Of a stretch of DNA of 64,000 nucleotides, positions 40,503-61,127 are shown one piece after another. The notes beneath the pieces were generated by a model. That model saw only the letters and a list, made by a program, of their open reading frames with translations, had not been told where the DNA came from and did no database searches. The position numbers and the translations under genes are program-made. Within the stretch, counting starts at the first letter, position 1; each line of letters starts with the position of its first letter. The stretch covers positions 1,736,001-1,800,000 of the forward strand of contig NZ_CP100763.1 in assembly GCF_024296685.1 (NCBI RefSeq), given 5' to 3'. This stretch comes from Natrinema marinum. Its GTDB lineage: Archaea; Halobacteriota; Halobacteria; Halobacteriales; Natrialbaceae.

Positions 40503-41572
40503 TCCCGATCGCGAGTCCCGAACTCGGCAAGCGGGAGGTCGACCGCGTTTCGTCCGTCATCGAGAGCGGTATGCTCGCCGACGGCGACGAGGTCCGAGCG
40601 TTCGAACGGGAGTTCGCCGACTACTGCGGCGTCGAACGCGGCGTCGCGACGGCGAACGGCACGGCGGCGCTCCACGCCGCGCTCGAGGCCGTCGGTATCG
40701 GAGCCGGTGACCGCGTCCTCACGACGCCGTTCTCGTTCGTCGCGACGGCGAACGCGATTAGACACGCCGGAGCAGAACCACTCTTTGCTGACATCGACCC
40801 GATCACGTACAACTTAGATCCGGGCGCCGCCCGCGAGATTGCTGAGTCGAAGGCTATCGATGCGATACTCGTCGTCCACCTCTACGGCCTTCCGGCCGAG
40901 ATGGACGCGTTCGTGGACCTCGCAGACGATCTCGAGGTGCCGCTGATCGAAGACTGTGCGCAGGCCCACGGCGCGACCTATCGAGGCGACCGGGTCGGGT
41001 CGTTCGGGGACGCCGCCTGCTTCTCGTTTTATCCGACGAAGAACATGACGACCGGGGAAGGCGGTATCGTCCTGACCGACCGCCGCGAGGTCGCAGACCG
41101 CGCCGGGCAGTACGTCGACCACGGCCGCACGGACGACGGCACGCACGCGACCCTTGGTCACAACTTCCGGCTGACCAACCTTGCGGCCGCCATCGGCCGC
41201 GCCCAGCTCGAGCGTCTCCCGCGGTTCGTCGAGCGGCGACGGGAGAACGCCACTCGCCTGAGCGACGGTCTCGCCGGAACGGACCTGTCGCCGCCGACGG
41301 AGCCGAGTCACGCCCGGCACGTCTACCACCAGTACACGGTTCGATCCCCCGACCGCCGGGCCCTCCGCGACCACCTTGCGGCCCACGACATCGGGGCGGG
41401 CGTCTACTACTCGACGCCCATTCACGAGGAACCGGCGTACGGCGACGTGAGCCACGACGCGCCCGCGGCGGAACGGGCCGCGGCGGAGGTACTGTCCCTC
41501 CCGGTCCATCCGAACGTCTCTCCAGACGAGATCGACCGCATCACGGAGGTGATCGCCGACTATGCAGCCTGA
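40499..41572 (+). CDS. DegT/DnrJ/EryC1 aminotransferase, WbpE-like
   Basis: 357 residues, fold type I PLP enzyme. [20 protein letters not shown] is the standard start; [12 protein letters not shown] binds the PLP phosphate; EDCAQAHGA carries the ring-contacting Asp; [14 protein letters not shown] holds Lys181, the PLP Schiff-base residue. It should transfer an amino group from glutamate to the 3-keto-uronate nucleotide made by the next enzyme. Overlaps upstream by 4 and downstream by 11 bases. Confidence 0.92.
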
Positions 41573-44983: not shown

Positions 44984-45758
44984 GGATTTCACGTTCGAGA
45001 TGTACGAGAACCTGCTCCAGAGCGGTCTCGAATCCGGCTACGACCATCTCACTGTTCGAGAGTTTCTCTCTCGAAGCAGGGTGCCAGAACGGTTCATCAT
45101 TCACAGACACGACGTGGATCGAAAACCGGAAAATGCACTCGCAATGGCACGACTCGAGGCGGAGTACGGGGTCTCGAGTACGTATTACGTCAGGACCATT
45201 GAGAAGACCTTCGATCCCGACCTGATCCGCGAAATCGAGGCTCTCGGTCACGAGATCGGCTACCACTACGAGGACATGGACAGAAGCGCAGGCGATCTCG
45301 ATCGCGCCCACGAGTCGTTCGCAACGAACCTCGAGAGAGTTCGACAGTACGCGACGGTCGACACGGTCTGTATGCACGGAAATCCACTCACGACGTACGA
45401 CAATCGGGAGATGTGGCGCGACGGGGACGAAACCCCGACGCTCGAGATGTACGACCTCCTCGGGGAAGCATACCTCTCTCTGGACTTCGAGACGGTGGTC
45501 TATTTTTCCGATACCGGTCGGACGTGGCGGGATGGTGCGATGAAGATAAAGGATCATACGATCGGCCCGGATTCGAAATCGATCCAGATCGAGACAACCC
45601 CCGATTTGATACGCCGTCTGGAAGCGTGCTCGCTTCCTGCCTGCTGTGTCCTCACCCATCCCAATCGCTGGGCGCGGACCACGACGGAACACGTCGTCGA
45701 AACGGCGAAGGATTCGGTAGTCAACCTCGGAAAACTCGGACTCAATATGGTACGATAA
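44976..45758 (+). CDS. polysaccharide deacetylase-like protein (NodB fold)
   Basis: 260 residues. FIIHRHDVDRKPENALAMA holds the Asp-Asp-type metal site start (HDVD), and LGHEIGYHYEDMD the HxxxH-like second part; HGNPLTTYD and VLTHPNRWAR complete the barrel. Cytoplasmic by lack of a signal peptide, so it may act on lipid-linked intermediates before export. No classical NodB serine/aspartate signature beyond these, so the reaction is inferred. Overlaps the GT2 gene by 8 bases and is 1 base from the next. Confidence 0.82.
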   Translation: MTRDFTFEMYENLLQSGLESGYDHLTVREFLSRSRVPERFIIHRHDVDRKPENALAMARLEAEYGVSSTYYVRTIEKTFDPDLIREIEALGHEIGYHYEDMDRSAGDLDRAHESFATNLERVRQYATVDTVCMHGNPLTTYDNREMWRDGDETPTLEMYDLLGEAYLSLDFETVVYFSDTGRTWRDGAMKIKDHTIGPDSKSIQIETTPDLIRRLEACSLPACCVLTHPNRWARTTTEHVVETAKDSVVNLGKLGLNMVR

Positions 45759-45759
45759 C

Positions 45760-47319
45760 ATGACAATGCTAGCAATCGGACTGGACGGTGCGAACTGGAA
45801 TCTCGTTGATAAATGGATCGCCGACGGAAAGCTACCGAACCTCAGGCGGTTAAAAGAGAACGGTATCGGCGGAACGTCGAAGAGTTGCTTGCCCCCGTTG
45901 ACGGTGCCCAACTGGAAGTGTTATTCGACCGGAAAGAATCCAGGAAACTTCGGCGTCTTCCGATTCGACAGGATTGACACGGAGTCGCGTTCGCACACGT
46001 TCCACGACTATTCCGACTTCGACAGTCCAGAACTGTGGGACTACCTCAACGCCGACGGGTTGACGACCGGGATCATCAACAAGCCGTCGACTTATCCCCC
46101 GAAGGCTGTCGACGGGTTCATGGTGTCCGGCGGCCCGGACGCGTCCGATTCGGAGTATCGGTCGCTCGAGTCCGGATTCACGTATCCATCCGCACTGGGC
46201 GACGAGTTGCAAGCGGCATTCGACTACGATGTTCATCCGACACCGATGATATCCCCGTCTGAGACCGGCGACCGAGAGGTGGAGGCGATACTGGATCTGA
46301 TTGAGACGCGGTTCCAAGTTGCGAGGTACCTGCTCGATCGCGAAGCTCCCGACTTTCTTCACCTAACTATCTTCTATAATATGGCCCTCCAGCATTACTT
46401 CTGGCGAGAGGAACCGGTTCTTCGTGCCTGGAAGGTTATCGACGAGAACCTCGCCGGGTTTATCGACGACGGTCACGACCTCGTCATCTTCTCCGACCAC
46501 GGAACGTGTCGTGTCGACGTTACGTTCTACATCAACGTCTGGCTCGAGGAGAACGGCTATCTGACGACCGAGCAGACCGTCGATCGGCGGTTACGGTCTC
46601 TCGGATTTACCCGCGAACGGGCGCTTCGGATCGCCAAACGTCTAGGAATGGTCGACGTTCTCAGCAAGACGGTGCCCGAACGAATCCAGAAGGTCCTCCC
46701 CTGGGAGGAGGGGCTCAAACGTGACAGAGTGCTCTCGGCGGTCGACTGGGACGAAACGTCGGTCCTCGCCAGCAATCAGGGTCCGGTCTACCTGACTCTC
46801 GATCGTGACGATGCCGAGTACGAGCCCCTTCGAACCGAACTGATCGAACGGTTGCAAGCCCTCTCGCATCCCGAAACCGGGGCGCACATCGTCGATGCCG
46901 TCCATCGAGGGGAGGAATTATACTCGGGACCGTACGCCGGGGCCTCCCCGGATCTCGTCATCGAACAGGGCGACAACGTACACACGAGCGATGCGATCGG
47001 TCCGAATTCGTGGTGGGCGAACACTGGTGTCTGGCAGGGAGGCAACACGCGAAACGGCTTGTTCCTGTTTCACGGTCCGAGCTTCCGCCAAGGGGCGACC
47101 GACGCCGATGCCGAGATCGTCGATATCGCACCGACGATTCTCCACTCGATGAACGTTCCCGTGCCTGATGATATGGATGGGACCGTTCTGGACGTCTTCG
47201 AAGACGATGCCGACAACGCTGTCACATATCGGACGCCGCTTTCCACCCCCAACAGCGCTGCCAGAACCGAGAGTGAATCGGTCGAACAACGGTTGGCCGA
47301 CCTGGGATACCTCGAGTGA
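45760..47319 (+). CDS. alkaline-phosphatase-superfamily enzyme (phosphodiesterase/transferase type)
   Basis: 519 residues. The metal sites typical of the superfamily show as AIGLDGANW (D9), LPPLTVPNWKCYSTGKNPG with Thr48 as likely nucleophile, FSDHGT near 245 and the late GLFLFHGP region, with PTILHSMNVPVPDDMDG at the end. Members include type I phosphodiesterases and phosphoglycerol/phosphoethanolamine transferases. In a glycan operon it may act on a nucleotide-sugar, lipid-pyrophosphate or phosphate decoration; no membrane helix or signal is present, so a cytoplasmic site is expected. Start either 45760 or 45766. Its stop overlaps the next start (GTGA). Confidence 0.85.
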   Translation: MTMLAIGLDGANWNLVDKWIADGKLPNLRRLKENGIGGTSKSCLPPLTVPNWKCYSTGKNPGNFGVFRFDRIDTESRSHTFHDYSDFDSPELWDYLNADGLTTGIINKPSTYPPKAVDGFMVSGGPDASDSEYRSLESGFTYPSALGDELQAAFDYDVHPTPMISPSETGDREVEAILDLIETRFQVARYLLDREAPDFLHLTIFYNMALQHYFWREEPVLRAWKVIDENLAGFIDDGHDLVIFSDHGTCRVDVTFYINVWLEENGYLTTEQTVDRRLRSLGFTRERALRIAKRLGMVDVLSKTVPERIQKVLPWEEGLKRDRVLSAVDWDETSVLASNQGPVYLTLDRDDAEYEPLRTELIERLQALSHPETGAHIVDAVHRGEELYSGPYAGASPDLVIEQGDNVHTSDAIGPNSWWANTGVWQGGNTRNGLFLFHGPSFRQGATDADAEIVDIAPTILHSMNVPVPDDMDGTVLDVFEDDADNAVTYRTPLSTPNSAARTESESVEQRLADLGYLE

Positions 47320-48434
47320 TCATGCGGGTCCTCTTCGACATCACTCATCCGGCACACGTGCACCTGTTCAAGAACGCGATTCGGGAACTCTGGGACTCCG
47401 GCCACCACGTCCTCGTCACGGCGAGGGGAAAGGACATCACGGTACCGCTGCTCGAGTCCTACGGGATCCCACACGTCGTCCTCTCGTCTAAATCGAGCGG
47501 GATCGTCGGGACGGTCAGTGAATGGCTGCTCCGAGAGGTCCGACTGGCACGAATCGCGACCGAGTTCGACCCCGACGTTATCGTCAGTCGGTTCAACCCT
47601 GCTGGCGCACACGCGTCGAAGGTCGTCGGGTGTCCGTTCCTGATGCTAGACGATACGGAGAACGAATCGTCGCTCATCAAAAATCTCACCTATCCGCTCG
47701 CGGACGCCGTCTTCACGCCGTCGTGTTTCGAACTCGAGCTGGGCGACAATCAGATCAGATACGACGGATACCACGAACTGGCGTATCTGCATCCCGACCG
47801 GTTTACACCCGACGAAGCGGCGTTGCGGGACCACGATATCGATCCCGACGGAGAGTACTACGTTATCCGATTGACCGCCTGGGACGCGTTCCACGACTAC
47901 GGCGCCTCCGGCGTGTCACAGCAGACCCTATCCGAGATCGTTTCGCTACTGAGCGATCGCGGAAGCGTATACATAACGAGCGAAGGATCTGTGCCGTCGG
48001 CGCTGGCGGACTACGGACTCGAGATCCCGCCATGCCGAATCCACGATCTACTAGCTTTTGCCAATGGATATATCGGAGATTCGGGAACGATGGCGACTGA
48101 AGCGGCGATCCTTGGAACGCCGGCGATCCGGATCGATCCGCTCGCGGGACGCCACACCGGCGGGAATTTCGTCGAACTAGAGGAGCGGTACGGCCTCCTC
48201 CGTTCGACACCGCATGAACGTGAGGCAGTCCGCGAACTGAGAGCGCAAGTCTCCGATCCGCGGACAGCAGAAAAGCATCGTGAGGGCGTGAAGAGACTGC
48301 TCGACGATAAGATAGATGTCACCGCCTTTCTCCTGGATCGAATACGTTCCGTCACGAACGACAGCGATCCGAAACGGACACAACGGAATTTCAGCCAGGG
48401 GGAAGCGACCAAACCCAGAACGACACCGGACTGA
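47316..48434 (+). CDS. DUF354 family protein (GT-B fold, glycosyltransferase/epimerase-like)
   Basis: 372 residues. MRVLFDITHPAHVHLFKNAI is the standard DUF354 start; GIPHVVLSSKSSG, FLMLDDTEN, FTPSCFELELG and YHELAYLHP are typical, and GYIGDSGTMATEAAILGTPAIR is the sugar-nucleotide-binding loop shared with MurG and UDP-GlcNAc 2-epimerases. Function within archaea is untested: either a glycosyltransferase or the C2 epimerase that would turn the diacetamido-gluco uronate into the manno form. GTG at 47316 overlaps the upstream stop; ATG at 47322 is the alternative. Last gene of the operon. Confidence 0.87.
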   Translation: MIMRVLFDITHPAHVHLFKNAIRELWDSGHHVLVTARGKDITVPLLESYGIPHVVLSSKSSGIVGTVSEWLLREVRLARIATEFDPDVIVSRFNPAGAHASKVVGCPFLMLDDTENESSLIKNLTYPLADAVFTPSCFELELGDNQIRYDGYHELAYLHPDRFTPDEAALRDHDIDPDGEYYVIRLTAWDAFHDYGASGVSQQTLSEIVSLLSDRGSVYITSEGSVPSALADYGLEIPPCRIHDLLAFANGYIGDSGTMATEAAILGTPAIRIDPLAGRHTGGNFVELEERYGLLRSTPHEREAVRELRAQVSDPRTAEKHREGVKRLLDDKIDVTAFLLDRIRSVTNDSDPKRTQRNFSQGEATKPRTTPD

Positions 48435-48453: not shown

Positions 48454-50280
48454 CTACTGATCTGCGTTGTAGTCCGCGGGATCGATACGCTGATCGTCGG
48501 TGTAGACCTGCGTGCCACCCGACAGGAACGTGAAGTCGACTAGTTCGCCCGAATATCCGAGGCGGTGGACGCCACGCTCGATTGTCCCGGTAGCGGAGGT
48601 CTCTGACAGTAGTTCGACATCCCTGCCGGCGAGCGTGTCGATCACACCGCTGACCGTCACCTCGTAGGTCGATTCGTTTCCGTTACCGACGATTGTCAGG
48701 ACGTGAGACGGTTCGGTGCTATACTCCGATGGGTCCAGTTGCTCGCCGTCGACATAGACCCGCGCCGGACCGTCGACGGTGATCGACTCGAGGTCGCCGC
48801 TGAATCGGTACGCGTCGCGCCATCCGGAGACGGTGCCGGTAACGCGGCCGCCGTCGATAACGTCATCCTCGTTGATATACGCGCCCCTGTAGTTCGTCTT
48901 CTCGATGTCTCCGCTGACCTGGAACTCGTACTGGCTTGTGCCCGAAGTCCCGACACCGTCGACGAGGATATCGGTCCCGTTTGCCGCGAGGTCCGCTTCG
49001 TCTGTGTCTTCGGGGATCGATTCGATCGTTTCGAATCCGTCGATGGCGACCTGATTCCCACTTTCGGAGAGGGTGATGCTACCCTTGGGTACGCCGACTC
49101 GGAGGATTTCGCCGTTCGTAACGTCGAAATCGTCAGTGCCGCCGGACGAAGTGTACCCGTGGGCATACCAGAGCCCCTCTCGTTCGACCGCACGGTCTTG
49201 GTACTCGTGGTCGTTCGTGTTCGCGTTCGAACCCGGATCGACGGAATCGGCGTCGAATTCCAGGATGTATTCGTTCAGGTCGTCTTGGCCCGATATTTGG
49301 AGCGTGAAATCACCCGTCGGCAGTTCCGGATCGGAGGAGTCTGAGTCGGAAGTCCCCGAATCTGAAGTTCCCTGCTCGATATTTAGCACGTGATCATCGT
49401 AGTACGTCGCCATGTCTCTCGGGGATGTCTCGCCACCACCGTAGCGAGTGTACGGACCGGAGTACTCGATCGCATTGGAAGTACGGTCTTCGGTCCATCG
49501 AAGATCAGTTCGCTCGTAAATGAGTTCTCCGTCGACCCGGATGCGATAGATCCCGTCGTTCTGGGCCTGCCCGTTTTCGACGCTGTTGACTTTACAGTAC
49601 GTCTCGAATCGATACCAGTTACCGGGTTCGATCAACCCGTTCCCGTAGTAGCCATCGTTCTCCTGTGCGTCCGTATCCATGTGGTACAGATACGCCGAGA
49701 GATTGTATGGGCCGTTGTTTTGTGCTCCGGAGCCACGGTTTGCGAGGACGACGCCTGCAGACCAGCCGTTAGTGCCATCGGCACCCGGTTCGCCACCGGA
49801 GTGACCGCTTCCCGCCGAATAGGACATCGCTGTCCGGAGAATCTTACACTGATCGTCGTCGTTCATCGTCCAGTTATCTGACAACCGGAACATGAAACTG
49901 TCCCGTATCTCGACCGGCTGATAGCCGAGCGCGTTTTCGACATTGAAATGAGTGTTCGTCCCACAACTTCCGCCGGAACGAAGCGCGATTTCCAATGCGT
50001 TAGTACCGGTGTACGCCTGTCCGTCGACGAAAGAGGCCTGGTCCGGACTGCACGTCCATACGCGATACACGTCTGACGGGTTCGTATGCGAATCATAATC
50101 TATCTCTATTACGTCTCCACCGGACTCCGCGGCAGCAATCGAGGCTCCCGTCGAACCTGTAAATGCGATTGCGGTTCCACCCGCAGCTTTTAGCATCGAT
50201 CTGCGGTTAATAACGTGTTTCGGGGGCGTGTCCGATTCGTTCCGTTCTTTGCCATCTCGTACCGGTCGGTCGCGTGCCAT
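48454..50280 (-). CDS. Tat-exported polysaccharide-lyase-14-like protein with beta repeats
   Basis: 608 residues. INRRSMLKAAGGTAIAF is a twin-arginine signal. The N-terminal domain (about 55-320) shows PL14/alginate-lyase jelly-roll features: a GTNTHF strand, NGWSAGVVLANRG, YLYHMDTDAQE, GNWYRFETYCKVNSVENGQ then DGIYRIRVDGELIYER, and YGGGETSPRDMATYYDDHVL. After a Ser/Asp linker (about 325-335), the C-terminal 270 residues contain three related beta modules each ending in a VYVDGEQLDPSEYS-like element (carbohydrate-binding or surface-binding). It should cut or bind an acidic polysaccharide outside the cell. Its stop is 20 bases from that of the glycan operon (convergent). Confidence 0.78.
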   Translation of the reverse strand: MARDRPVRDGKERNESDTPPKHVINRRSMLKAAGGTAIAFTGSTGASIAAAESGGDVIEIDYDSHTNPSDVYRVWTCSPDQASFVDGQAYTGTNALEIALRSGGSCGTNTHFNVENALGYQPVEIRDSFMFRLSDNWTMNDDDQCKILRTAMSYSAGSGHSGGEPGADGTNGWSAGVVLANRGSGAQNNGPYNLSAYLYHMDTDAQENDGYYGNGLIEPGNWYRFETYCKVNSVENGQAQNDGIYRIRVDGELIYERTDLRWTEDRTSNAIEYSGPYTRYGGGETSPRDMATYYDDHVLNIEQGTSDSGTSDSDSSDPELPTGDFTLQISGQDDLNEYILEFDADSVDPGSNANTNDHEYQDRAVEREGLWYAHGYTSSGGTDDFDVTNGEILRVGVPKGSITLSESGNQVAIDGFETIESIPEDTDEADLAANGTDILVDGVGTSGTSQYEFQVSGDIEKTNYRGAYINEDDVIDGGRVTGTVSGWRDAYRFSGDLESITVDGPARVYVDGEQLDPSEYSTEPSHVLTIVGNGNESTYEVTVSGVIDTLAGRDVELLSETSATGTIERGVHRLGYSGELVDFTFLSGGTQVYTDDQRIDPADYNADQ

Positions 50281-50790: not shown

Positions 50791-51696
50791 CTATTCGGAA
50801 CCGGTATTGAAGAATAGCGTATGGTCGTCATAGGTCGCCGCCATGTCTGTTGGTGCAGTCTCTCCCCCACCGTAGTACAGAAACGGACCGGCGTACTCGA
50901 TCGCCTGGTCGTTCGTCGTCGTCCACCGACGCTCCTCACGCTCGTAGATCAGTTCGTCGTCTAACCAGATGCGTAAGTCACCGTCAGGGTTTGCCTCCCC
51001 GTCGGTTATCGAATTCATGCGTACGTAAGCGCCGATTTTAAACCACTCGCCCGAGGTCACGTGGGCCTCACTGTCGGGAGGATTATTGTCACTCCATTCA
51101 CCCAAGTGATACTCGTACGTGGCCAACTCGTAGGTGCCGTCCGACAGCCCGGCTGGATTTTCGAGGATGAGCGACGCCGACCATCCGTCATCACCGGAGG
51201 GTTTGCAATCGACACCGGTTCCACACGAGCCGGCCTCCGTGTTCAGACCAACCCGGAATATCTTACATTTGTCTCCGTCGGCCATCTTCCACCCCTCCGA
51301 TAGCCGAATATAACACGACTGATACATCTCGGTCGGTTGCCCGTCTCCTTGATGTGGAAACCAGTAATGACAGTTCGTCCCGCAACTGTCATCCTCAACG
51401 AGGCTGATTTCAAGTGCCTGGTCACCAGTACGAGTTCGCTCCGTTGTTAGCGATGCTCGCTCTGGGTCGCACGTCCAAACTCGATAAATCTCCTCCAGAT
51501 TGTCGAACTGATCGAAATCGATCGCAATGCTATCGATTTCCTCGCTCTTGAAATCATCAAACGGTAGCGCAGAGTTCACCGGGGCATTCTTCGGGGCGGG
51601 TTTCGCATCGTCGGCAATTCTAGCTACCCCGTAAATCGAACCCACCGAAAGTGCTCCGACTGTCGCTGCCTTCAGATACGACCGACGGTTCAGCAT
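50791..51696 (-). CDS. Tat-exported PL14-like single-domain protein
   Basis: 301 residues, starting MLNRRSYLKAATVGALSVGS, a twin-arginine signal. Residues 55-300 align with the lyase domain of the 608-residue neighbour: EEIYRVWTCDPERASL versus SDVYRVWTCSPDQASF, SCGTNCHYWF, DGWSASLILEN, YEYHLGEW, DLRIWLDDELIYERE and YYGGGETAPTDMAATYDDH. It lacks the C-terminal beta modules, so the pair arose by duplication followed by gain or loss of the tail. A GTG three codons earlier (51705) is possible. Function as for its neighbour: exported glycan lyase or glycan-binding protein. Confidence 0.75.
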   Translation of the reverse strand: MLNRRSYLKAATVGALSVGSIYGVARIADDAKPAPKNAPVNSALPFDDFKSEEIDSIAIDFDQFDNLEEIYRVWTCDPERASLTTERTRTGDQALEISLVEDDSCGTNCHYWFPHQGDGQPTEMYQSCYIRLSEGWKMADGDKCKIFRVGLNTEAGSCGTGVDCKPSGDDGWSASLILENPAGLSDGTYELATYEYHLGEWSDNNPPDSEAHVTSGEWFKIGAYVRMNSITDGEANPDGDLRIWLDDELIYEREERRWTTTNDQAIEYAGPFLYYGGGETAPTDMAATYDDHTLFFNTGSE

Positions 51697-51921
51697 TATA
51701 TACACCGTACGGAGGCCATTTTGAAGAGCAGTCGTATTGTTCGACCTTGGTAAGATCTACTTTCTGGAACGTGCATTGACGTACCACCGAGGAGATGGGT
51801 GTCGCTTTGACTCGAGCATCCCGTCTCCGCCGTTTGGCTTCGAATACGTCACTGCCCCAACACGGCCCCGGAGTCCCGAAATAGGGTCCTTCGGAGTCAA
51901 GGTGTTTTTCTGAACCAGTGT

Positions 51922-52854
51922 GTGTCGCAGCTGAGTACCGTCCCTAGGGGAGCGTATTTTGATGCTCGAGGTGGAGAGTCCCCGAAGATGAAGGGACACG
52001 ACTTCGCGGTCTGTTTGACACACGACGTCGATAGACCGTACAAGACGTTTCAGGCCCCATACGATGCGATTGTGGAACGAGATCTAGCACACCTGACGTC
52101 ACTGGTCAGCGATGACCGCCCGTACTGGCAGTTCGACGAACTGCTGTCTCTCGAAGAGAAATACGACGTTCGGTCATCGTTTTATTTCCTAAACGAGAAG
52201 AAGCTTCTCCGAGATAAACGCCCCCAAGAGTGGATCAAACCACGGAATTGGATACTCTTCGGTGGGCGATACGAGATAACGTCAGATGAGATCACGGACG
52301 TGATTCGGACACTCGACCGAGGGGGGTGGGAGGTCGGTTTGCACGGGTCTTACGAGTCCTTCGATGACCGTGGTCGATTACGATTCGAGAAAGAGCAACT
52401 CGAGGAGTTACTGGACGGGGACGTCATCGGCGGCCGGCAGCACTATCTCAATTTGCAGGGAACGCGAACGTGGGACCACCATCGACGGATCGGATTGCGA
52501 TACGATGCCAGCCTGGGGTCGAGCACGGAGTACGGGTTCAACGGCCGGTATGACATCCGCCGGCCGTTCGACGACGAGTTCGTCGTGTTTCCGCTTACGA
52601 TTATGGAAACGCCGCTAATGGAATCGACACCGTCGGTCGACGCCGCGTGGCGGGAGTGCAAGCGACTGCTCGTCGAAGCTCAGGAACATGGTGCAGTTAT
52701 GACCGTGCTCTGGCACCCGAGATACATAAACGAGGAAGAATACCCTGGTTACCGAACGATCTACGAACGGCTGATTCGAGAAGCCAAGGCCATGGACGCC
52801 TGGGTAGGCCCCTGCGGAGAATACTACCGGCGACTCGAGACGACAGTGCAGTGA
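51922..52854 (+). CDS. polysaccharide deacetylase family protein
   Basis: 310 residues with a GTG start; an ATG at 51988 (MKGHDFAVCLTHDVDRPYK) is the other option. CLTHDVDRPYKTF carries the HDVD metal motif, WEVGLHGSYESFDD the HGS motif, and MTVLWHPRYINEEEYPGY the last His. No signal peptide. The family removes N-acetyl groups from glycans; in surface-glycan clusters the substrate is usually the lipid-linked or nascent polymer. Divergent from the lyase-like gene. Confidence 0.88.
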   Translation: MSQLSTVPRGAYFDARGGESPKMKGHDFAVCLTHDVDRPYKTFQAPYDAIVERDLAHLTSLVSDDRPYWQFDELLSLEEKYDVRSSFYFLNEKKLLRDKRPQEWIKPRNWILFGGRYEITSDEITDVIRTLDRGGWEVGLHGSYESFDDRGRLRFEKEQLEELLDGDVIGGRQHYLNLQGTRTWDHHRRIGLRYDASLGSSTEYGFNGRYDIRRPFDDEFVVFPLTIMETPLMESTPSVDAAWRECKRLLVEAQEHGAVMTVLWHPRYINEEEYPGYRTIYERLIREAKAMDAWVGPCGEYYRRLETTVQ

Positions 52855-53103
52855 TCCCGTCCGGGCCGACGTATGTGTTCTATGATCGGTGATAAATGTC
52901 CCTCCGCCGTAGTCCCAACTGAACCGAGTAACACACCGATCGCACAGCGGTCGTGCGGTCGGGTGTACAGTGACTGCAGTGGCTACTATCGCCCCCATCT
53001 CACAGGCATCGTCAGAACCTGATCGGCGCGTATCGGCGTTGAAAGGCGGAAATACGGGATTGCTCGAGGGAACAATCGAATACCACCGGTTGGCTTTTCA
53101 CCG

Positions 53104-54315
53104 ATGACGGCGGCTTGGAACGGTATGAGCGCCTCGCCACGGGTTCTGCTCCTCGACGGAGACTATCCGAGTTCGATCACCATTGCGAAGGAACTTAGCG
53201 AGGACATCGGTGCGACCGTCATCGGTGCAGGAACGACGGCGTACAGCCGCCTGCTCCGTTCGCGATACTGCGACGTGGAGGTCACCGTCGCGCCGACCGA
53301 CGACGATCGGTACGCCGAGTCGCTCCTGTCCGCGATCCGGACCCACCGACCGGCGTTCGTCCTCCCTGTCGGCTACCAGTCGGCGGCCCAACTCCAGTGT
53401 CTTCGACCGGAGCTCCCGTCGTCCGTTACGGTCTGTCTCCCGTCCGCGGAGTCGTTCTGCGCTGGATCGGACAAAGCGACCACCGCCTCCTACGCGACGG
53501 ATCTCGGGATCGACGTTCCGACGGACTACTCGAGCCTCGTCGAATCGATCGATGCGAACGGTCGGTCGGCCGACGCGCTCGCTCGGCTAGAGTTCCCGGT
53601 CTTCCTCAAAGCCAGACGTGAAGCCGGCGGTGGGGGTGCGACCACGGCACGGGTCAACGATCCAGCCCGCTTTTGGGAGGCCTACGACGAGATACTGGCG
53701 GCCGCGCCGACGGACGACGTGCTGGTCCAGGAACTCGTTGACGGACCGGGGATGACCTACGGCGTCGGCGTGCTCTGTCTGGACAACGAGGTCGTCCTCC
53801 GGTTTTGCCACGAGGAACTCAGATCCGTTCCGCGCCGCGGCGGGAGCGGTACCCTCCTCCGAATCTGCCGCGACACCGCTCTCGAGCGGCGAGCGGCCGA
53901 GTTGCTCCGATCGATCGGCTGGCACGGGATCGCGCTCGTCGAGTTCACGCAGCGAGCGGACGGCTCGTTCGTCCTCATGGAGATCAACCCGAAGTTCTGG
54001 GCGTCGTATGCGTTGGCCAGCGCGCACGGCTACCGATTCGCGTCGACGATGGTCGCCAGCGCGCTCGACCTCGACGCAGACGTGCCCTTTGGCACCGCCG
54101 AATCGGTCGGCGAGATGGTGTTCCCGCTCAGAGAACTGTATCACTGCGCTCGAAACCCGACACGGCGACTGGCTCGTGAGTGCCTCGAGACGGCGCTCAG
54201 ACCCGGAGTCGACTGGAACGTTGACCGAGACGACATCGGTGCGTGGCTGACGCCGCCGGTAGACATCGTCCGACGCATGCCCACGTTCGAGCGACCTCGA
54301 ACCCGGATCGGCTGA
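53104..54315 (+). CDS. ATP-grasp superfamily ligase
   Basis: 403 residues. SASPRVLLLDGDYPSSITIA is the N-terminal Rossmann-like part; CAGSDKATTASYATDLGIDVP, FPVFLKARREAGGGGATTAR and LVQELVDGPGMTYGVGVLC form the ATP-grasp fold; VEFTQRADGSFVLMEINPKFW holds the Mg-binding Glu/Asn. It should form an acid-amine (peptide-like) bond using ATP. With FemAB-like transferases nearby it could attach amino acids or amines to a surface glycan; substrate unknown. ATG at 53125 is an alternative start. Confidence 0.88.
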   Translation: MTAAWNGMSASPRVLLLDGDYPSSITIAKELSEDIGATVIGAGTTAYSRLLRSRYCDVEVTVAPTDDDRYAESLLSAIRTHRPAFVLPVGYQSAAQLQCLRPELPSSVTVCLPSAESFCAGSDKATTASYATDLGIDVPTDYSSLVESIDANGRSADALARLEFPVFLKARREAGGGGATTARVNDPARFWEAYDEILAAAPTDDVLVQELVDGPGMTYGVGVLCLDNEVVLRFCHEELRSVPRRGGSGTLLRICRDTALERRAAELLRSIGWHGIALVEFTQRADGSFVLMEINPKFWASYALASAHGYRFASTMVASALDLDADVPFGTAESVGEMVFPLRELYHCARNPTRRLARECLETALRPGVDWNVDRDDIGAWLTPPVDIVRRMPTFERPRTRIG

Positions 54316-54495
54316 TTTCGGTCGACCCTCTTCCGACTGATAGATGGGAAACCGACATATATGGCCGTGAGTGGCCGTCTCCGGCTGGATCGACGGGTTC
54401 ACCGGACCACCGTTCGTTCCGAACTGACATCGTCAGAATGCTGTGCTCGTTGAACGGTGATTTATACAGGACGTTGTCGTAGGGTGTCCGAACTG
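54316..54495 (+). other. short promoter-bearing gap before the GT-C-like gene
   Basis: About 180 bases between the ATP-grasp gene and a possible small ORF. ATTTATACAG (54459-54468) is a good TATA core centred about 30 bases before the ATG at 54496. Confidence 0.4.
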
Positions 54496-54696
54496 ATGTC
54501 CCCTCCACCGCTCACTTCGGTCCCACGCCGCCGGGCCGACAGCGAACCGAACGTCGAACGGGGCAAGAGTATGACGGTCGGATTCGGGCTGCCATCACAG
54601 TCGAGGTCGGTCTCGTTCGTCCGATCACACCGCCGTCGCGTGACTCGAGCGTGGAGCGAGCGATTCCTCGAGGTCGACTCAGAGATGGACACATGA
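54496..54696 (+). CDS. possible 66-residue leader protein coupled to the GT-C-like gene
   Basis: Starts MSPPPLTSVPRRRADSEP and ends EVDSEMDT; the TGA overlaps the ATG of the next gene (ATGA at 54693-54696). Codons favour C/G at the third position as in real genes here, and a TATA box sits about 30 bases before its ATG. It is Arg/Ser-rich with no domain I know, so it may be a true small protein, an upstream coupling ORF, or chance. Confidence 0.35.
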   Translation: MSPPPLTSVPRRRADSEPNVERGKSMTVGFGLPSQSRSVSFVRSHRRRVTRAWSERFLEVDSEMDT

Positions 54697-56516
54697 GTTG
54701 GTCCAGAGACGCCGCGTTCGACCGAGCCTACGTCGCATCGATCATCGTGCTCCCCCTGCTAGCGGTCGCCGGTGTGCTCGTTCCGTACCTTCTCGGTATC
54801 ACGAACTTCGCGATACTCGGCCTCTATCTCGCCGTTCCGATGGTCCTGGCGTCGATCGTTCTGTGGCGCCTCGACGACCCTCGCTTTCGAAATCCGGTGT
54901 CTGAACTCGCCGTCGACTGGCGGCTCCCCTCAGTCGCGTTCCACGTTGCAGTTACCATACTCATACTTTCGCTTACGGTCTACGATGTCCGTCCGTTGAC
55001 ATTCTACGCCGGTATCGCGTTTCTGTACACGGTGATCCTGCTGTTGATCTGGATCCCCGATCTCGACGCGGGACGCACGGGTGTCTGTCTGTATCACACG
55101 TTCGTCGCGATTTCGCTGGTGATCTTCAGCGTCACGCACAAGTACGACTTCTTCCTCGGATTTACCGATCTGGCTGTCCATGTGTCGATCGTGAATAGGA
55201 TCGTCGAGACCGGGACGTTGGTCTCGATAGAGACGTACGGACCGTTCCAGTTCTGGCACGTCTATGCCGCGATGACACACCAGCTCCTCGGCGGCGAAGT
55301 GACGACTCACCGGACCGTCTACCTCCTCGGTGGCCTCGTGTACGGCGCCGGCGTGTTTGCGATGTACGGACTGGCTCGTCGCCTCTATCCGAGTGGCCGA
55401 GTCGCACTGCTGGCACCGCTGATTGCGATCTCACATCCGCTGTACATCTTCTACGGGATGTATTCGATTCCACGGAGCGTTACTTCCGTTCTCTTTCTCA
55501 CACTCTTGGTCGCGCTCGTCGGCCGGCCGACGCGTGAACTCCGGCTCGTTGCGCTCGCGTTCGTCTTTGCCATCGTCATCTACCATCCCGTCTCCATCCC
55601 GTTCGTTTTCGTCGCGCTGGCGGTTATCTACGCGGTCGAACGGTTATTTCGATCCCGGCCCGCGATCGTCAGTGACACCACGCTCATCACGGCCGGATTG
55701 ATAACGCTCACGTATTGGCTATACTCGGCCGAATTCCTCGTCGAGCGCATCGTTTGGACGCTCATCGGGACGTTTTCCAGTTCAGGTGGAGAACCGTCGC
55801 CCGCGGGCGTCGTCACGAGTCCGTGGGCCGAGGTCGCAAACTACGTCCCCTATTCGTTTTTCGTGTTCTTCGTTCTGCTCGGAGCGCTACTGTGGCTTCG
55901 CGAAGAGTCGGCGACTCGGTCCGCCGCCGCGTTCGGTGTTTCGACACTGATACTGCTTCCCCTGTCCGTCCCGGGTCCGGTCTTGCTCCTCGACTCGCTC
56001 GTCGGCGTCAACATCGGACGGTTCGGTCACTACACGTTCATGTTCCTCTCGCTGACGGCCGCGGTGGGCGTCCACCAACTGATCACGCGAGGCGGCCGTG
56101 AGCTCTTCGTCGTGATCGTCCTCGTGATGGCGGTGTTCTCGTTTGCCGCCGTCTCGAACGACTTCGTGGCCAGGGACAACCCCGTCGTCGAACGCCCGTT
56201 CTACACGTACTACCTGACCGAGCAAGAGCGCCAGTCGTTCGAACACATCGACGAGCAATACGCCGGCCCGGTGGTAGCCGATCGATCAACATGCCGGTAC
56301 ATGGTGGAGATGATCGGACGAGACTGTACGGTCGTCAACACGACGAACACGAGTACGATGCTCTCGGAACCGGATAGCGTCCTCCTTCGAGAAGGTGAAC
56401 TCGAGCGGAGACCGTTACAGTTCGATCGGTACGTCTACGATGACGACCTCCCTCGCTGGCAACTGACGAAACGTGACAGAGTGTACGATTCTGGTTCGGT
56501 CGTGTTCTACACGTAA
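54693..56516 (+). CDS. GT-C-like multi-pass membrane protein (putative glycosyltransferase/polymerase)
   Basis: 607 residues with about 13 hydrophobic segments in the first 490, then an extracytoplasmic domain of about 110 residues. The loop after helix 5 has DLAVHVSIVNRIVETG and YGPFQFWHVYAAMTHQ, resembling the D-x-H and FHxxxA loop pattern of archaeal GT-C and dolichyl-phosphate-sugar-dependent enzymes. IPRSVTSVLFLTLLVALVGR is the next conserved helix. It could transfer sugars or link repeat units on the outer face. The start at 54693 (MSWSRDAAF) was chosen. Confidence 0.75.
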   Translation: MSWSRDAAFDRAYVASIIVLPLLAVAGVLVPYLLGITNFAILGLYLAVPMVLASIVLWRLDDPRFRNPVSELAVDWRLPSVAFHVAVTILILSLTVYDVRPLTFYAGIAFLYTVILLLIWIPDLDAGRTGVCLYHTFVAISLVIFSVTHKYDFFLGFTDLAVHVSIVNRIVETGTLVSIETYGPFQFWHVYAAMTHQLLGGEVTTHRTVYLLGGLVYGAGVFAMYGLARRLYPSGRVALLAPLIAISHPLYIFYGMYSIPRSVTSVLFLTLLVALVGRPTRELRLVALAFVFAIVIYHPVSIPFVFVALAVIYAVERLFRSRPAIVSDTTLITAGLITLTYWLYSAEFLVERIVWTLIGTFSSSGGEPSPAGVVTSPWAEVANYVPYSFFVFFVLLGALLWLREESATRSAAAFGVSTLILLPLSVPGPVLLLDSLVGVNIGRFGHYTFMFLSLTAAVGVHQLITRGGRELFVVIVLVMAVFSFAAVSNDFVARDNPVVERPFYTYYLTEQERQSFEHIDEQYAGPVVADRSTCRYMVEMIGRDCTVVNTTNTSTMLSEPDSVLLREGELERRPLQFDRYVYDDDLPRWQLTKRDRVYDSGSVVFYT

Positions 56517-56696
56517 CAGCGCGGTCGGCCTACTGTCTGGCACGAAAGTACAGATCCAGCGAGCCAAGTAGAGACGATCGGTCCGAATCACCGGACGCCG
56601 TGGTCGATTAGCGCATTAACAACGGGATTCTCGGTTCGTACGTTCGAAAGATTCGTCTATGAATACGCTGCAGTGGCGACATCGAACGCGATCTCC

Positions 56697-57740
56697 ATGA
56701 GTATCGAGATTACGACACTAGACGGAACCGTCCGGGAACAGTGGGACAAATACGTATCACGGTCACCGCATGGGACGATCTTTCACAGGTACGCTGCGCT
56801 GAAAGCACAGGAAGACTGTTCGAACACATCGCTTCACCCGCTGGTCGGATACAAGGGAGAAGAACCAATCGGCGTCTTTCCGGTCTTCTCGGCACAGCGA
56901 GGCCCTTTCACGTTCGCGTTCTCGCCGCCGTACGAACTGCACGTTCCGAACCTCGGACCGGCGCTGCTCAACATGCAGAAACTGAAACAACGGAAACGAG
57001 AGAAACGCCACCGCCGGTTCATCGACGGCTGTCTCGAGTGGATCACGACCGAACTGGAGACCAGCTACGTCTCGATCAGAACCGGCTGGCGCTACGACGA
57101 CTTGCGCCCGTTCACATGGAACGAGTTCGACGTACAGCCGAGCTACACCTACGTGATCGACCTCGAAACGGACGAAGACGAGCTCTTAGAGCGTTTCAGT
57201 AGCACGACGCGGAAGACCGTCCGGAACAACCTCGACGAGGAGTACGCGGTGACGACCGGTGGGCGAGAGGCAGTCGAGTGGATTATGGAGCGCGTCCGAG
57301 AGCGGTATCACCACCAGGAGAAGACGGCGACGATCTCGACCGGGTTCGTCGTCGACCTCTACGACCGACTCCCCGAAGGAACCGTCCGTCCTTACATCCT
57401 CTCGGTCGACGGCGAACCGGTCACAGGGACGATCCTTCTCGAGGACGACGGGATCGCTCACCGGTGGCAAGGGGGTGCGAAACCGGACGTCGACCTCCCG
57501 GCGAACGAACTCCTCGAGTGGCACATGCTGACCGATGCGATGGAACGGGGCATCCGGGAGTACGAGATGGTCGACGCGAACGAGCCACGAATAAACAAGT
57601 GGAAAGCGAAGTTCGCTCCCGACGTTCGGACATACTTCACGATGAAGCGGTCGGGACCCGGCGTCGAAGCGGCCGTTCAGCTCTATCTCAGACTCCGCGA
57701 TCAGAGCGAACTCGTCACGAAACTCGCCCCCGGTCGGTAA
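56697..57740 (+). CDS. FemAB/GNAT-fold acyl- or aminoacyltransferase 1
   Basis: 347 residues, starting MSIEITTLDGTVREQWDKYV. Tandem GNAT halves of the FemAB/BioF2 type: SPHGTIFHRYAALKAQ at the N-terminus, SSTTRKTVRNNLDEEYAV in the middle, and RPYILSVDGEPVTGTILLED, HRWQGGAKPD and EYEMVDANEPRINKWKAKFA, a typical late-GNAT stretch. Related enzymes add amino acids from aminoacyl-tRNA to glycans, or link acyl groups; bacterial exosortase loci carry similar ones. Not a close match to the second copy downstream. Confidence 0.82.
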   Translation: MSIEITTLDGTVREQWDKYVSRSPHGTIFHRYAALKAQEDCSNTSLHPLVGYKGEEPIGVFPVFSAQRGPFTFAFSPPYELHVPNLGPALLNMQKLKQRKREKRHRRFIDGCLEWITTELETSYVSIRTGWRYDDLRPFTWNEFDVQPSYTYVIDLETDEDELLERFSSTTRKTVRNNLDEEYAVTTGGREAVEWIMERVRERYHHQEKTATISTGFVVDLYDRLPEGTVRPYILSVDGEPVTGTILLEDDGIAHRWQGGAKPDVDLPANELLEWHMLTDAMERGIREYEMVDANEPRINKWKAKFAPDVRTYFTMKRSGPGVEAAVQLYLRLRDQSELVTKLAPGR

Positions 57741-57813
57741 GGACAGACCGCTCGCTGCGTCCGACGGCAAGCGGAGTACGGTGGCCGAGGAGAGGCAAGT
57801 TCGAGCCGGTCGA

Positions 57814-58836
57814 TCAGGACGTGTACCACTGGTACAGCGTTCGCCCGGCGTTCAGGCCCGTCAGGGCCGGTTTCGGGTAGCCGCGTTCCCAAGTCAGACA
57901 CGGGACGGGGTCGGCCGCGAACCGTTCTTTGAATCGGAACAGCCCGTCTCTGAAGTCCGGGTCCGTCCCACGGAAATTGTAGGTCTCGTAGCCGTTCTCC
58001 ATTCCCCACTTGATCGCGTGTTCGTGGATCAACTCCGAGGCGTTGTACTCGAAATCGTCTTCCGTCACGGCCGAACAGAGGTACTGGATCGTCGACCGCT
58101 CGTCGTCCAGGACGAACACCATCGATCCGCGCCGCTTGCCGTCGACGTAGAGCGAGAACACCTTCACCAGTTCCGGTACGTGTTCGAGTTCGCGGAAGAA
58201 CGACGCCGGCAATCGCCATCCCTCGAGCCGGTCGATGACGGACTCGTAGCTTCTGTGCACGTCCGCGAGCAGTTCTGGGGTGAGCGCCTCGTCGACGACC
58301 GTTCCGTCGTGGTCGTGGCCGCGTCGGATCGCTCGTCGGCGCGAACTGTCCATCTCCGCGATGATCTCGTCCCAGTCGTGGGTGATGTCGAGACGGAGGT
58401 GACAGTTCTCGATCCGCAGCTCGTAGCCGTGCTCGCTGAGTACGTCGTGGTAGCGGACGTAATCGGGGTCGACGATACTGATCTGATTGAACAGAACGCG
58501 GCCGTCACAGAGCACGGGAACCGCCTCGAGGAGGCGTTCGATAGCCGCTTCCTCGTCGGTCATCGCGATCGGACCGACCGATCCTGGTTTGACGGTGTTC
58601 AACCGCCGGAGCGGCGTGGGGCCGACGGAAGCGACGAAGTTCGGCCACACCGCGATCGGATTCCCCTTCTTTTCGACGACGAGGTGTCGGGGGTCGAACG
58701 AGCGGCCGCGTTCGACCGCCCGGAGCCAGTCGTATCGATGGAAGACGCTGCCGAGTTCGGCCTGAGAGACGACTTCGTCCCACTGGTTTTCGTTCGCCGT
58801 TTCGATGGTGTCGAGCTGCCGGACGGTTAGAGACAT
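57814..58836 (-). CDS. FemAB/GNAT-fold acyl- or aminoacyltransferase 2
   Basis: 340 residues starting MSLTVRQLDTIETANENQWD. SQAELGSVFHRYDWLRAVER, SSRRRAIRRGHDHDG, GKRRGSMVFVLDDERSTIQ, and NGYETYNFRGTDPDFRDGLFRFKERF show the FemAB double-GNAT fold. It converges on copy 1 with about 70 bases between the stops. Its first 44 codons plus promoter are duplicated at 60949-61127. Promoter: minus strand GCTATATTTCG about 41 bases before the start. Confidence 0.82.
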   Translation of the reverse strand: MSLTVRQLDTIETANENQWDEVVSQAELGSVFHRYDWLRAVERGRSFDPRHLVVEKKGNPIAVWPNFVASVGPTPLRRLNTVKPGSVGPIAMTDEEAAIERLLEAVPVLCDGRVLFNQISIVDPDYVRYHDVLSEHGYELRIENCHLRLDITHDWDEIIAEMDSSRRRAIRRGHDHDGTVVDEALTPELLADVHRSYESVIDRLEGWRLPASFFRELEHVPELVKVFSLYVDGKRRGSMVFVLDDERSTIQYLCSAVTEDDFEYNASELIHEHAIKWGMENGYETYNFRGTDPDFRDGLFRFKERFAADPVPCLTWERGYPKPALTGLNAGRTLYQWYTS

Positions 58837-58884
58837 GCGTACGTTGAGTCGGTCGTACGCCCATCTCCAGCGAAATATAGCTTC
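58705..58884 (-). repeat. 5' end and promoter of FemAB copy 2, duplicated downstream
   Basis: This 180-bp block (first 44 codons, ATG, leader and TATA region) recurs in the same orientation at 60949-61127 with most bases identical, including the block around GCGAAATATAGCTTC. Confidence 0.85.
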
Positions 58885-59382
58885 CTGCGGCGGTCGAACG
58901 AATGGTGAGATTGTCGGTTGAAATCGAGGTCAACAACGGGTTACACGGAGTGGTCTCCGAGGGGGATGACCGGGCGGCTGCAGTCGAACGCAGATTGTGA
59001 ACGGAGTGTGGCTTCGATCGGCCTCTTTCCAGCCGAACGGAAACAGACGTGAACGTGCCATCCGTCGGGTAATCGCTGGCTGTGACGACGGCAACAGTGT
59101 GACTCGCAGGTCGATCGAACGTGTCGGGTCTGGACGATCACACCACAACTGCTCCACGCGTCTCGACCGAGTGAGGTGCCATATCGCTCGTCACCAGGCG
59201 AACGTGCGAGGCGGAGACGGCGAAGCTCACGCGCGCCGTCTACGAATACACTGCGGCATCGCGGACGACCTCCGCGTCGGCCGCCTACGAACTGACCACC
59301 GCCGACGAGCGATCCAGTCGCCGGTTCTTCGGCGACGAACCGAAGGGCGATTCCTCGAGTGTCACTCCGCGATCCGAGGGCG
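58837..59382 (-). other. intergenic region between FemAB 2 and the flippase
   Basis: About 545 bases. The first 50 contain the FemAB-2 promoter. A 129-codon plus-strand frame (58997-59386) and others are Arg/His/Cys-rich and unlike haloarchaeal proteins. Probably decayed sequence; no gene called. Confidence 0.5.
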
Positions 59383-60795
59383 CTAGAACTGCTCTATCGC
59401 GTGGCGCCACAACTGCGATCGCATCGAGCCGTGTAGCGAGACGAGCGCACCGTAAATCGCGACACCGGCAACGACGAATGCGAGCAACGTGGGAAGGGAA
59501 TCGACCGGGTATCGCTGTTTCATCGCGTAGAGAACGAGGTACATCCCGGTGGCCGAGCCGACACACCAGAGTATCTCGTCGTACCGAACGCGGAGTCGCA
59601 TCAGTTGTGAGAGATAGTACGTTCGTACGACAGTCCCAGCCGTCATCGAAACGACCGTCGCGACCGCAGCGCCAACAATCCCGAACTGCCATATGAGGAC
59701 GAAATTCAGCACCAAATTCCCGATGATGTCGACGAGCGCGGCGCGCGTGACGTAGTCGGGCCGATTCAGACCGAACAGGGAGTTTCCGGCGAGTATCCGA
59801 ATCGCTCGCGGAATCTTTCCACCGACGAGGATGATGAGGACGAGCCACGCCGCCGTATACTCCGGGCCGTAGACCAGCTCGAGAATCTCTCGTGAAAGGA
59901 GCAACACGCCGAAAAAGGCCGGAATTGTCAGTAGTACCGCCGGCGTGACGACCCTCGAAAACAGCCGCTCGACGGCTTCGATCGATCCGGTGGCTTCCCA
60001 GGAGCTGATCTGCGGGAAGATCGTCGTGCTGATCGCGCTCGTGAACAGCAACACCGGCGCGGCGACCTGCCACGCGACCTCGTACACGCCGACCGCCGCC
60101 GGGGCGAGGAAGAAACTGATGACGAGGATATCCATCCAACTGTGCATGTATCCGTTGGCGTCGGAGACGGTGGCGTACTTCGAGTAGTTGACCAGCGACC
60201 GTGCGAGATCCCGGGATGGAGACCCGATACCGGTTTCGACTTTGTACGCCGCCAACGCGAGTTCCGCCGCGTAGCCGATCAGCAAGGCGTACGCCAATCC
60301 AGTCGCCCCGTAGCCACGCGTCACGAGAATCGCACCGACCCCGATCCAGGTGACCGAGTGAGTGAAGGTGATGATCGCCGTTTCACCGACGCGCAGTTCG
60401 CCTTCCAGCGCATCGATCATCACCTCTGCGACCTCCTGGACGACGAGCGTAACGGCCAACAGTAGAGCCAGCTCCGCACCGAGATACTCGTTGAGAATCG
60501 GACTCGCGGCCACGAGAATCGGCACGATCACCGACAACAGCACGAGCTTTAGAACGAGTCCTGTCGAGAGCGTTTGCTCGGGGCTACGGCCCTCGCTGAT
60601 CCGTTTTATGATCGCGGTGTTCAATCCGAGAGTCGCAGGCAGCGAGAGAAATCTGAGCAGCGCTTGGAAGAGAAAGAACACCCCCAGTTGCGCCGCTCCG
60701 AGTTCGCGGGCGAAAAACGCGATACCCAGAAACAACACTACAGCGCCGCCGACGTTCGAGACGAAGACTTTCAACGACGATCGAGCGATATCCAT
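59383..60795 (-). CDS. oligosaccharide flippase (Wzx/MATE-like)
   Basis: 470 residues with about 14 hydrophobic segments of the polysaccharide-export (MVF/MOP) superfamily: MDIARSSLKVFVSNVGGAVV start, FFARELGAAQLGVFFLFQAL, the central DANGYMHSWMDILVISFFL, and FGLNRPDYVTRAALVDIIGN near 355. It should turn lipid-linked oligosaccharide across the membrane for N-glycosylation or polymer export. A TATA-like GGTTAACTAG lies about 25 bases upstream of its start. The next gene on the same strand is the FemAB-2 gene. Confidence 0.9.
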   Translation of the reverse strand: MDIARSSLKVFVSNVGGAVVLFLGIAFFARELGAAQLGVFFLFQALLRFLSLPATLGLNTAIIKRISEGRSPEQTLSTGLVLKLVLLSVIVPILVAASPILNEYLGAELALLLAVTLVVQEVAEVMIDALEGELRVGETAIITFTHSVTWIGVGAILVTRGYGATGLAYALLIGYAAELALAAYKVETGIGSPSRDLARSLVNYSKYATVSDANGYMHSWMDILVISFFLAPAAVGVYEVAWQVAAPVLLFTSAISTTIFPQISSWEATGSIEAVERLFSRVVTPAVLLTIPAFFGVLLLSREILELVYGPEYTAAWLVLIILVGGKIPRAIRILAGNSLFGLNRPDYVTRAALVDIIGNLVLNFVLIWQFGIVGAAVATVVSMTAGTVVRTYYLSQLMRLRVRYDEILWCVGSATGMYLVLYAMKQRYPVDSLPTLLAFVVAGVAIYGALVSLHGSMRSQLWRHAIEQF

Positions 60796-60924: not shown

Positions 60925-61080
60925 TCAGACACTGTCGTCACGGTCGTAGCCGCGTTCGACCACCCGGAGCCGGTCGTATCGATGGAAGACGCTGCCGAGG
61001 GCGGCCTGGGAGACGGCCTCGTCCCACTGGTTTTCGTTCGCCGTTTCGATGGTGTCGAGGCGCCGGACGGGCAGAGACAT
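60925..61080 (-). pseudogene. remnant of a duplicated FemAB gene (51 codons)
   Basis: The ATG at 61080 opens MSLPVRRLDTIETANENQWD, matching copy 2 in 38 of the first 44 residues; the similarity stops at VERG and seven unrelated codons follow to a stop. The full-length protein is 340 residues, so this cannot be functional as a transferase. The promoter is copied too, so it may still be transcribed. Confidence 0.8.
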
Positions 61081-61127
61081 GCGTGCTCGAATCGGTCGTA
61101 CGCCCATCTCCAGCGAAATATAGCTTC
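60949..61127 (-). repeat. second copy of the FemAB 5' block
   Basis: 179 bases paired with 58705-58884 in the same orientation, including the TATA region at 61114-61127. The flippase gene lies between the two copies, so recombination between them would delete it. Confidence 0.85.

Follow-up and report, generated by a model that had tools for sequence, protein, structure and literature searches.

In the Wbp/Vim pathway, as set out by Veith et al. (2020; PMC7468200), a di-N-acetylated uronic acid is the product of the Wbp enzymes; the proposal is that VimE strips its 2-N-acetyl group and that VimA transfers serine or glycine. Bacterial VimA matches the NCBIfam model TIGR03019 (XrtA-associated FemAB), and vim and wbp genes are found together in other bacteria too; the word "archaea" occurs nowhere in the main text of that paper. 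Three further systems described in the literature bear on what follows: the FemX-like enzyme Orf11, which converts streptothrisamine with Gly-tRNA (PMC12945691); the wall of Halococcus morrhuae, reported to contain glycine, gulosaminuronic acid and N-glycyl-glucosaminyl bridges (PMC4187196, citing Steber and Schleifer, 1979); and AepG of Haloarcula hispanica, a GT2 enzyme that charges dolichol phosphate with glucuronic acid in the making of an acidic exopolysaccharide (PMC9943897). Here we describe an island of genes at 39.9-60.8 kb of a 64,000-nucleotide stretch of Natrinema marinum (contig NZ_CP100763.1, here C1, positions 1736001-1800000; hereafter the window, numbered from its first letter). 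We think it probable that this island encodes a haloarchaeal Wbp/Vim-like route to an acidic surface glycan, in which an N-acetyl group would be replaced by an aminoacyl group. A preliminary description had pointed to six genes between 51922 and 60795, for a deacetylase, an ATP-grasp ligase, a membrane protein, two FemAB-type transferases (Fem1 and Fem2) and a flippase. All six open reading frames (ORFs) are there, at the limits given for them; the cluster is larger than described, however, these six being half of the island.

The upstream half, all on the plus strand, begins with four adjacent genes (39930-43959) that encode homologues of WbpD, WbpE, WbpB and WbpA, judged by family homology and, for the D and E roles, by gene context. 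The first product (39930-40502) is a WbpD-like hexapeptide-repeat acetyltransferase (PF00132, 5.9e-27; TIGR03570, 86 bits, below the cut-off of 161) and a candidate 3-N-acetyltransferase. It is followed by a WbpE-like DegT aminotransferase (40499-41572; PF01041, 7e-116; best NCBIfam match PseC, 280 bits, below the cut-off of 423.5), a WbpB-like Gfo/Idh/MocA dehydrogenase resembling UDP-GlcNAc 3-dehydrogenases (41562-42551; NF040723, 3.5e-66, 224 bits, below the cut-off of 450) and a WbpA/WecC-like nucleotide-sugar 6-dehydrogenase (42529-43959; NF040825, 294 bits, below the cut-off of 750), whose closest specific NCBIfam models are UDP-ManNAc dehydrogenases. The 6-dehydrogenase exceeds the cut-off of the broad dehydrogenase subfamily TIGR03026 (355 bits, cut-off 190), the only NCBIfam cut-off reached among the four proteins; no cut-off of a specific model was reached. 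By homology, a 3-dehydrogenase, an aminotransferase, an acetyltransferase and a 6-dehydrogenase would together make up the set required for UDP-2,3-diacetamido-2,3-dideoxy-hexuronic acid.

The downstream half opens with a VimE-like N-deacetylase (51922-52854, plus strand), whose earlier label as a deacetylase is borne out by its one NCBIfam match and by its predicted fold. The VimE model NF053580 is the sole NCBIfam match at E≤0.001 in all 41 aligned members of its family (best 1e-21); the window protein matches it at 6e-14, with residues 26-287 on positions 158-428 of the 431 in the model. A Pfam search with the window protein gave no match, and phmmer, run with that one VimE-like sequence, returned a single match, at an E-value of 0.55. 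Its predicted model (predicted local distance difference test, pLDDT, 85) has a NodB/CE4-type fold, with Z 21.6 to 3rxz (root-mean-square deviation, rmsd, 3.5; 241 residues aligned), Z 19.4 to ArnD (rmsd 3.0, 220 aligned) and Z 16.7 to the O-antigen-locus protein WbmS (rmsd 2.8, 194 aligned). Residues H34, D35, D37, H174 and H265 are invariant in the 41 sequences.

The deacetylase is widespread. It occurs in 86 of 125 genomes of the family, and across the class 148 of the 292 genomes sampled have a match at E≤0.001, covering 53 of 77 genera. Wbp, FemAB and other neighbours were counted by bit-score thresholds of our own choosing. Thirty loci of the family, none longer than 40 kb, were compared: FemAB occurs in 26 of them and three or more Wbp genes in 16. 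Ten control stretches of 40 kb, searched at the same thresholds, held no deacetylase, FemAB or Wbp gene, and one held DUF354 and GT2 genes. Since related genomes repeat this set near their deacetylase gene, and none of the ten controls does, the cluster is more than a chance assembly. A scan of a genome collection gave 134 confirmed matches, of which the best 80 were analyzed as named loci, and the counts from these lean to close relatives. FemAB is present in 61 of the 80, and in 26, from many genera, a FemAB gene on the strand of vimE follows it directly, no more than 700 nucleotides away and with as little as 18 nucleotides between the matched stretches (one of the 26, L150, is a 97-residue fragment). 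In the stretches covered for Wbp genes, at most 10 kb on each side, all four are found in 24 named loci and at least one in 41. Loci of Halorussus, Haladaptatus, Halostella and Halobacterium carry Wbp genes, vimE and FemAB in order, and Halococcus morrhuae (L190) has the order wbpDEBA-GT2-vimE, with a Fem1-type gene about 10.5 kb from vimE on the same contig. Several Haloferax species have the cluster as well. In Actinarchaeum halophilum (L164) and Halobacteriales archaeon YIM A00013 (L165), a second FemAB gene lies near the vimE-FemAB pair.

The FemAB-type label also stood. Fem1 (56673-57740, plus strand) and Fem2 (57814-58836, minus strand) both match PF13480 (Acetyltransf_6; Fem1, 1e-17), and Fem2 alone exceeds the gathering score of the FemAB family PF02388 (24 bits), with 38 bits (1.2e-9); Fem1 falls just below it with 23.5 bits (2.9e-5). 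The closest NCBIfam model of both is TIGR03019 (28.8 and 41.1 bits). In profile searches of PDB sequences, Fem2 found Weissella FemX at 7e-13 over about 290 residues and Fem1 found FemX 6snr ("Lipid II:glycine glycyltransferase") at 8e-8, with a best stretch of about 100 residues; phmmer with the single Fem2 sequence found no match. A midpoint-rooted tree of 120 of 123 FemAB sequences (three of fewer than 220 residues were dropped) divides them into a Fem2 group of 22 rows (support 100/100), whose join the tree program flagged for long branches, a third clade of 49 (100/99) and a Fem1 group of 49 with weak support (88/43). Profile comparison connects the third clade with Fem1 (1.8e-79), and of the 13 members aligned for that clade, 9 match TIGR03019. 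Of the 25 rows that stand directly behind vimE, 21 belong to the third clade and four to the Fem1 group. The Fem1 profile has five matches in the genome to which the window belongs: Fem1, Fem2, a Fem1-like gene at C1:1659634, a Fem2-like gene near C1:2341116-2342123, these last two being left out of the tree, and a truncated 5' copy of Fem2 beside the flippase gene (60949-61084, minus strand). This copy, 136 nucleotides that are 92% identical to 58705-58840 and leave a short remnant ORF, is, judged by its sequence, the trace of a FemAB duplication.

Several results weigh against reading the island as a Wbp/Vim-like route. The window deacetylase scores 51 bits where the VimE equivalog cut-off is 440, its motif-2-like histidine, H141, is His in 38 of the 41 deacetylases and Gln in three, and neither FemAB protein reaches the TIGR03019 cut-off of 260 bits. 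The window has Fem1 and Fem2 and lacks the third clade, the commonest directly behind vimE, and is therefore a variant of a wider haloarchaeal theme; the profile of that clade found no PDB sequence at E≤0.01. Five of the 148 class-level deacetylase matches are weak (G152, G166, G190, G297 and G333; 2e-37 to 3e-4). Thirty-nine of the 80 named loci have no Wbp gene and 19 no FemAB gene in the stretch covered, which for 11 of the 19 was 20 kb or more. Wbp genes are absent out to about 20 kb in ten of the 30 loci from the family; a WbpB homologue occurs elsewhere in each of these ten genomes, but it is near universal in the family (116 of 125), and co-occurrence with WbpB, being saturated, was set aside as a test. 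FemAB genes also occur in genomes that have no vimE (108 genomes with FemAB versus 86 with vimE among the 125; for example, G051 to G056).

The family loci with vimE and no nearby Wbp gene, and the FemAB genes found without vimE, speak for a looser association, in which the genes hitchhike in a glycan island: the diacetamido-uronic acid would stay unmodified, the deacetylase would have the completed polymer or a different sugar as its substrate, and the FemAB proteins would modify something unrelated, for instance a lipid or a protein. Lipid aminoacyl transferases of the MprF type have the same fold as Fem1, at lower Z (about 15-17), which also fits. Against this stand the direct vimE-FemAB pairs, recurring in about a third of the named loci and in many genera, and the deacetylase itself, which has no obvious signal peptide by eye, consistent with work in the cytoplasm. 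We consider this explanation rather unlikely.

A second alternative keeps the acceptor and changes the donor: Fem1 and Fem2 could be ordinary acyl-CoA-dependent N-acyltransferases of the GNAT type, adding a simple acyl group to the amine exposed by deacetylation. The best Pfam match of Fem1 is indeed to Acetyltransf_6, its FemAB match falling just below the gathering score, and bacterial VimA was itself once annotated as an acetyltransferase (PMC7468200). The predicted model of Fem1 (pLDDT 84) points the other way. Its fold table is headed by FemX (6snr; Z 25.6, rmsd 3.6, 305 aligned), FemA (1lrz; Z 25.6, rmsd 3.8, 295 aligned) and the aminoacyl-tRNA-dependent Sba18 and Sbb17 (Z 22.5-23.0, rmsd 3.0-3.1, 272 aligned), with a sequence identity to FemX and FemA of 13-15%. 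Z then drops to 17.0 for lipid aminoacyl transferases; tandem-GNAT and mycothiol synthase chains first appear at about 15, with N-myristoyltransferase chains also at about 15 and below. A family absent from such a table is not thereby excluded. Fem1 thus has the double-GNAT, FemX-like fold in its model, and the likeness of Fem2 is by profile only. In addition, the column of FemX Lys305 is Lys in all 118 rows with a residue (two of 120 rows are gapped), and K311 of Fem1 and K303 of Fem2, the latter located by counting along the FemX alignment, both fall in it. On sequence and predicted structure, the pair resembles aminoacyl-tRNA-dependent transferases and would depend on a charged tRNA, and we regard acyl-CoA-dependent GNAT enzymes as improbable. 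By analogy, Orf11 would be the closest biochemical precedent for the proposed aminoacyl transfer; Sba18 and Sbb17 were solved, according to their PDB titles, with streptothrisamine, an amino-sugar antibiotic.

The preliminary description had seen in the locus an archaeal parallel to exosortase-associated exopolysaccharide loci, tied to archaeosortase and PGF-CTERM proteins. It was right that the window encodes a PGF-CTERM protein (12939-15275, minus strand; S-layer-like, the C-terminus recognized by eye) and that it holds no archaeosortase: the only artA match of the genome (TIGR04125) lies at C1:129917-130759, 1.6 Mb away, other sortase models not having been searched. The co-occurrence check with artA that it had proposed, run at the levels of family (121 of 125 genomes) and class (292 of 292), cannot discriminate because artA is in every sampled genome of the class and leaves no variance. 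That the glycan serves as an attachment point for archaeosortase-sorted PGF-CTERM proteins is very improbable: the PGF-CTERM protein in the window, the XrtA-associated FemAB model as closest NCBIfam relative and the role of the Wbp/Vim sugar as a protein attachment point in bacteria with a type IX secretion system (PMC7468200) speak for it, but artA is distant, it is equally present in all 144 sampled class genomes that have no vimE-like match, and no XrtA-type deacetylase model is among the NCBIfam matches of the 41 aligned deacetylases. The exosortase parallel is accordingly not supported, artA being remote and the TIGR03019 cut-off missed. The other half of that earlier reading, a surface glycan decorated with amino acids, is well supported, with the linking-sugar pathway of Wbp/Vim, rather than exosortase loci in general, as its counterpart.

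For the Wbp/Vim-like route, we infer the following substrates, order of steps, donor, export and trimming. From homology and gene context, the Wbp-type enzymes would convert UDP-GlcNAc to UDP-2,3-diacetamido-2,3-dideoxy-hexuronic acid, the VimE-like deacetylase would take off one N-acetyl group and, as fold and key lysine suggest, a FemAB-type transferase would pass an amino acid from aminoacyl-tRNA to the freed amine. The sugar would be put onto dolichol phosphate by the GT2 glycosyltransferase (43943-44983, plus strand; PF00535, 1.6e-18), whose C-terminus is hydrophobic by eye and whose best NCBIfam link is AglJ (TIGR04182, 1.3e-14, below cut-off), and for which AepG may serve as a model. 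A Wzx-type flippase (59383-60795, minus strand; PF13440, 1e-20, and PF01943, which confirm the earlier label) would then flip the lipid-linked glycan, and polysaccharide-lyase-like proteins exported by twin-arginine translocation (Tat) may trim it. The latter are represented by one of two secreted-looking proteins encoded on the minus strand between the two island halves (50791-51705), which matches PF14099 at 3e-5 (24.5 bits, below the gathering score of 29.9); of 14 aligned members of its family, 12 reach E≤0.001 against PF14099, and R7 and R8, the twin arginines, are invariant in the 14-row alignment. The other (48454-50280) has no Pfam match, is similar to it in its N-terminal part by eye and has relatives in other loci.

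Other genes complete the island. Between the FemAB genes and the deacetylase lie the ATP-grasp ligase (53104-54315, plus strand; PF02786, 1.6e-8), a candidate amide-forming enzyme whose earlier label Pfam confirms, and a 621-residue membrane protein (54651-56516, plus strand). The latter is a membrane protein by eye and belongs to a conserved family (A5); the GT-C label once given to it is unproven, no Pfam, NCBIfam or PDB sequence match having been found, and it is possibly a polymerase or a glycosyltransferase. In the upstream half, the GT2 gene is followed, on the same strand, by a second deacetylase-like protein (44976-45758; motifs HRHDVDR and GYHYE by eye, no Pfam or NCBIfam match), a type I phosphodiesterase family protein (45760-47319; PF01663, 3e-28) and a DUF354 protein (47316-48434; PF04007, 6e-15), which we take, from the fold relation of its family, to be a candidate 2-epimerase or GT-B transferase; PDB sequence searches with the DUF354 protein and with the lyase-like family gave no match. 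The pair at 44976-47319 is present in some clusters (G022, G110 and G003) and not in others. Recurring unmatched ORFs near the cluster were left unused, since by eye most of them resemble reading-frame shadows of high-GC genes. Adjoining the island, a GC-poor stretch contains a gene for a secreted-looking protein of 520 residues (37857-39419, plus strand) with repeated Q/N-rich units, curlin-type-like by eye, and no Pfam or NCBIfam match. Farther upstream stands a convergent pair of genes for Cdc48-type double AAA ATPases, recognized by eye (29555-31795, plus strand; 31873-34104, minus strand).

A bolder proposal, which we regard as possible but doubtful, is that haloarchaeal tRNA-dependent FemX-type enzymes attach amino acids to a diamino-uronic or related amino sugar that the Wbp enzymes make for the surface polymers, and that the N-glycyl amino sugar described from the Halococcus wall in 1979 is a product of this gene set. 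The Wbp/Vim-like route, if real, would extend aminoacyl-tRNA-dependent sugar modification, so far a feature of cell walls and protein anchors in bacteria and of antibiotics, to the surface glycans of roughly half the haloarchaea (the deacetylase is in 148/292 sampled genomes). It also offers candidate genes for that constituent of the Halococcus wall. In open PubMed Central we found no paper on haloarchaeal VimE, haloarchaeal FemAB exopolysaccharide, an archaeal Wbp/Vim pathway or archaeal FemAB aminoacyl-tRNA glycans, a weak test that depends on wording and leaves most subscription papers and all preprints outside.

How, then, does the island compare with described systems? With PEP-CTERM/XrtA exopolysaccharide loci it shares FemAB and deacetylase genes beside glycan genes; it differs in that artA is far from the haloarchaeal cluster and in that its FemAB proteins miss the TIGR03019 cut-off. 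With FemX and FemA it shares the double-GNAT fold and the position of Lys305. To our knowledge, haloarchaea have no peptidoglycan, and therefore the acceptor must differ from that of FemX and FemA. Sba18, Sbb17 and Orf11 combine a FemX-like fold with an amino-sugar acceptor, a precedent for the predicted reaction, but they belong to the pathway of a small-molecule, streptothricin-type antibiotic and not to a surface glycan. The wall of Halococcus morrhuae, as reported, is a haloarchaeal polymer in which an amino sugar carries glycine and which also contains an aminouronic acid, from an organism whose genome has the cluster; because the reported acceptor is glucosamine and not a diamino-uronic acid, the match to the gene cluster is suggestive only. 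Like the Wbp/Vim pathway of Porphyromonas gingivalis and Tannerella forsythia, the island groups Wbp-type genes with a deacetylase related to VimE and transferases related to TIGR03019. The haloarchaeal set differs in being archaeal, in lying far below the family cut-offs and in having up to three FemAB clades; the island adds ATP-grasp, lyase-like and phosphodiesterase genes, and no WbpS-type amidotransferase is among its annotated genes. Judged from its sequence, the island would work like the Wbp/Vim pathway, yet we do not class it as a member because the VimE cut-off is missed and the likeness to VimA consists in a common TIGR03019 match only. On this point the preliminary description needs correction: for a comparison with bacteria, the Wbp/Vim sugar pathway is informative and the sortase is not.

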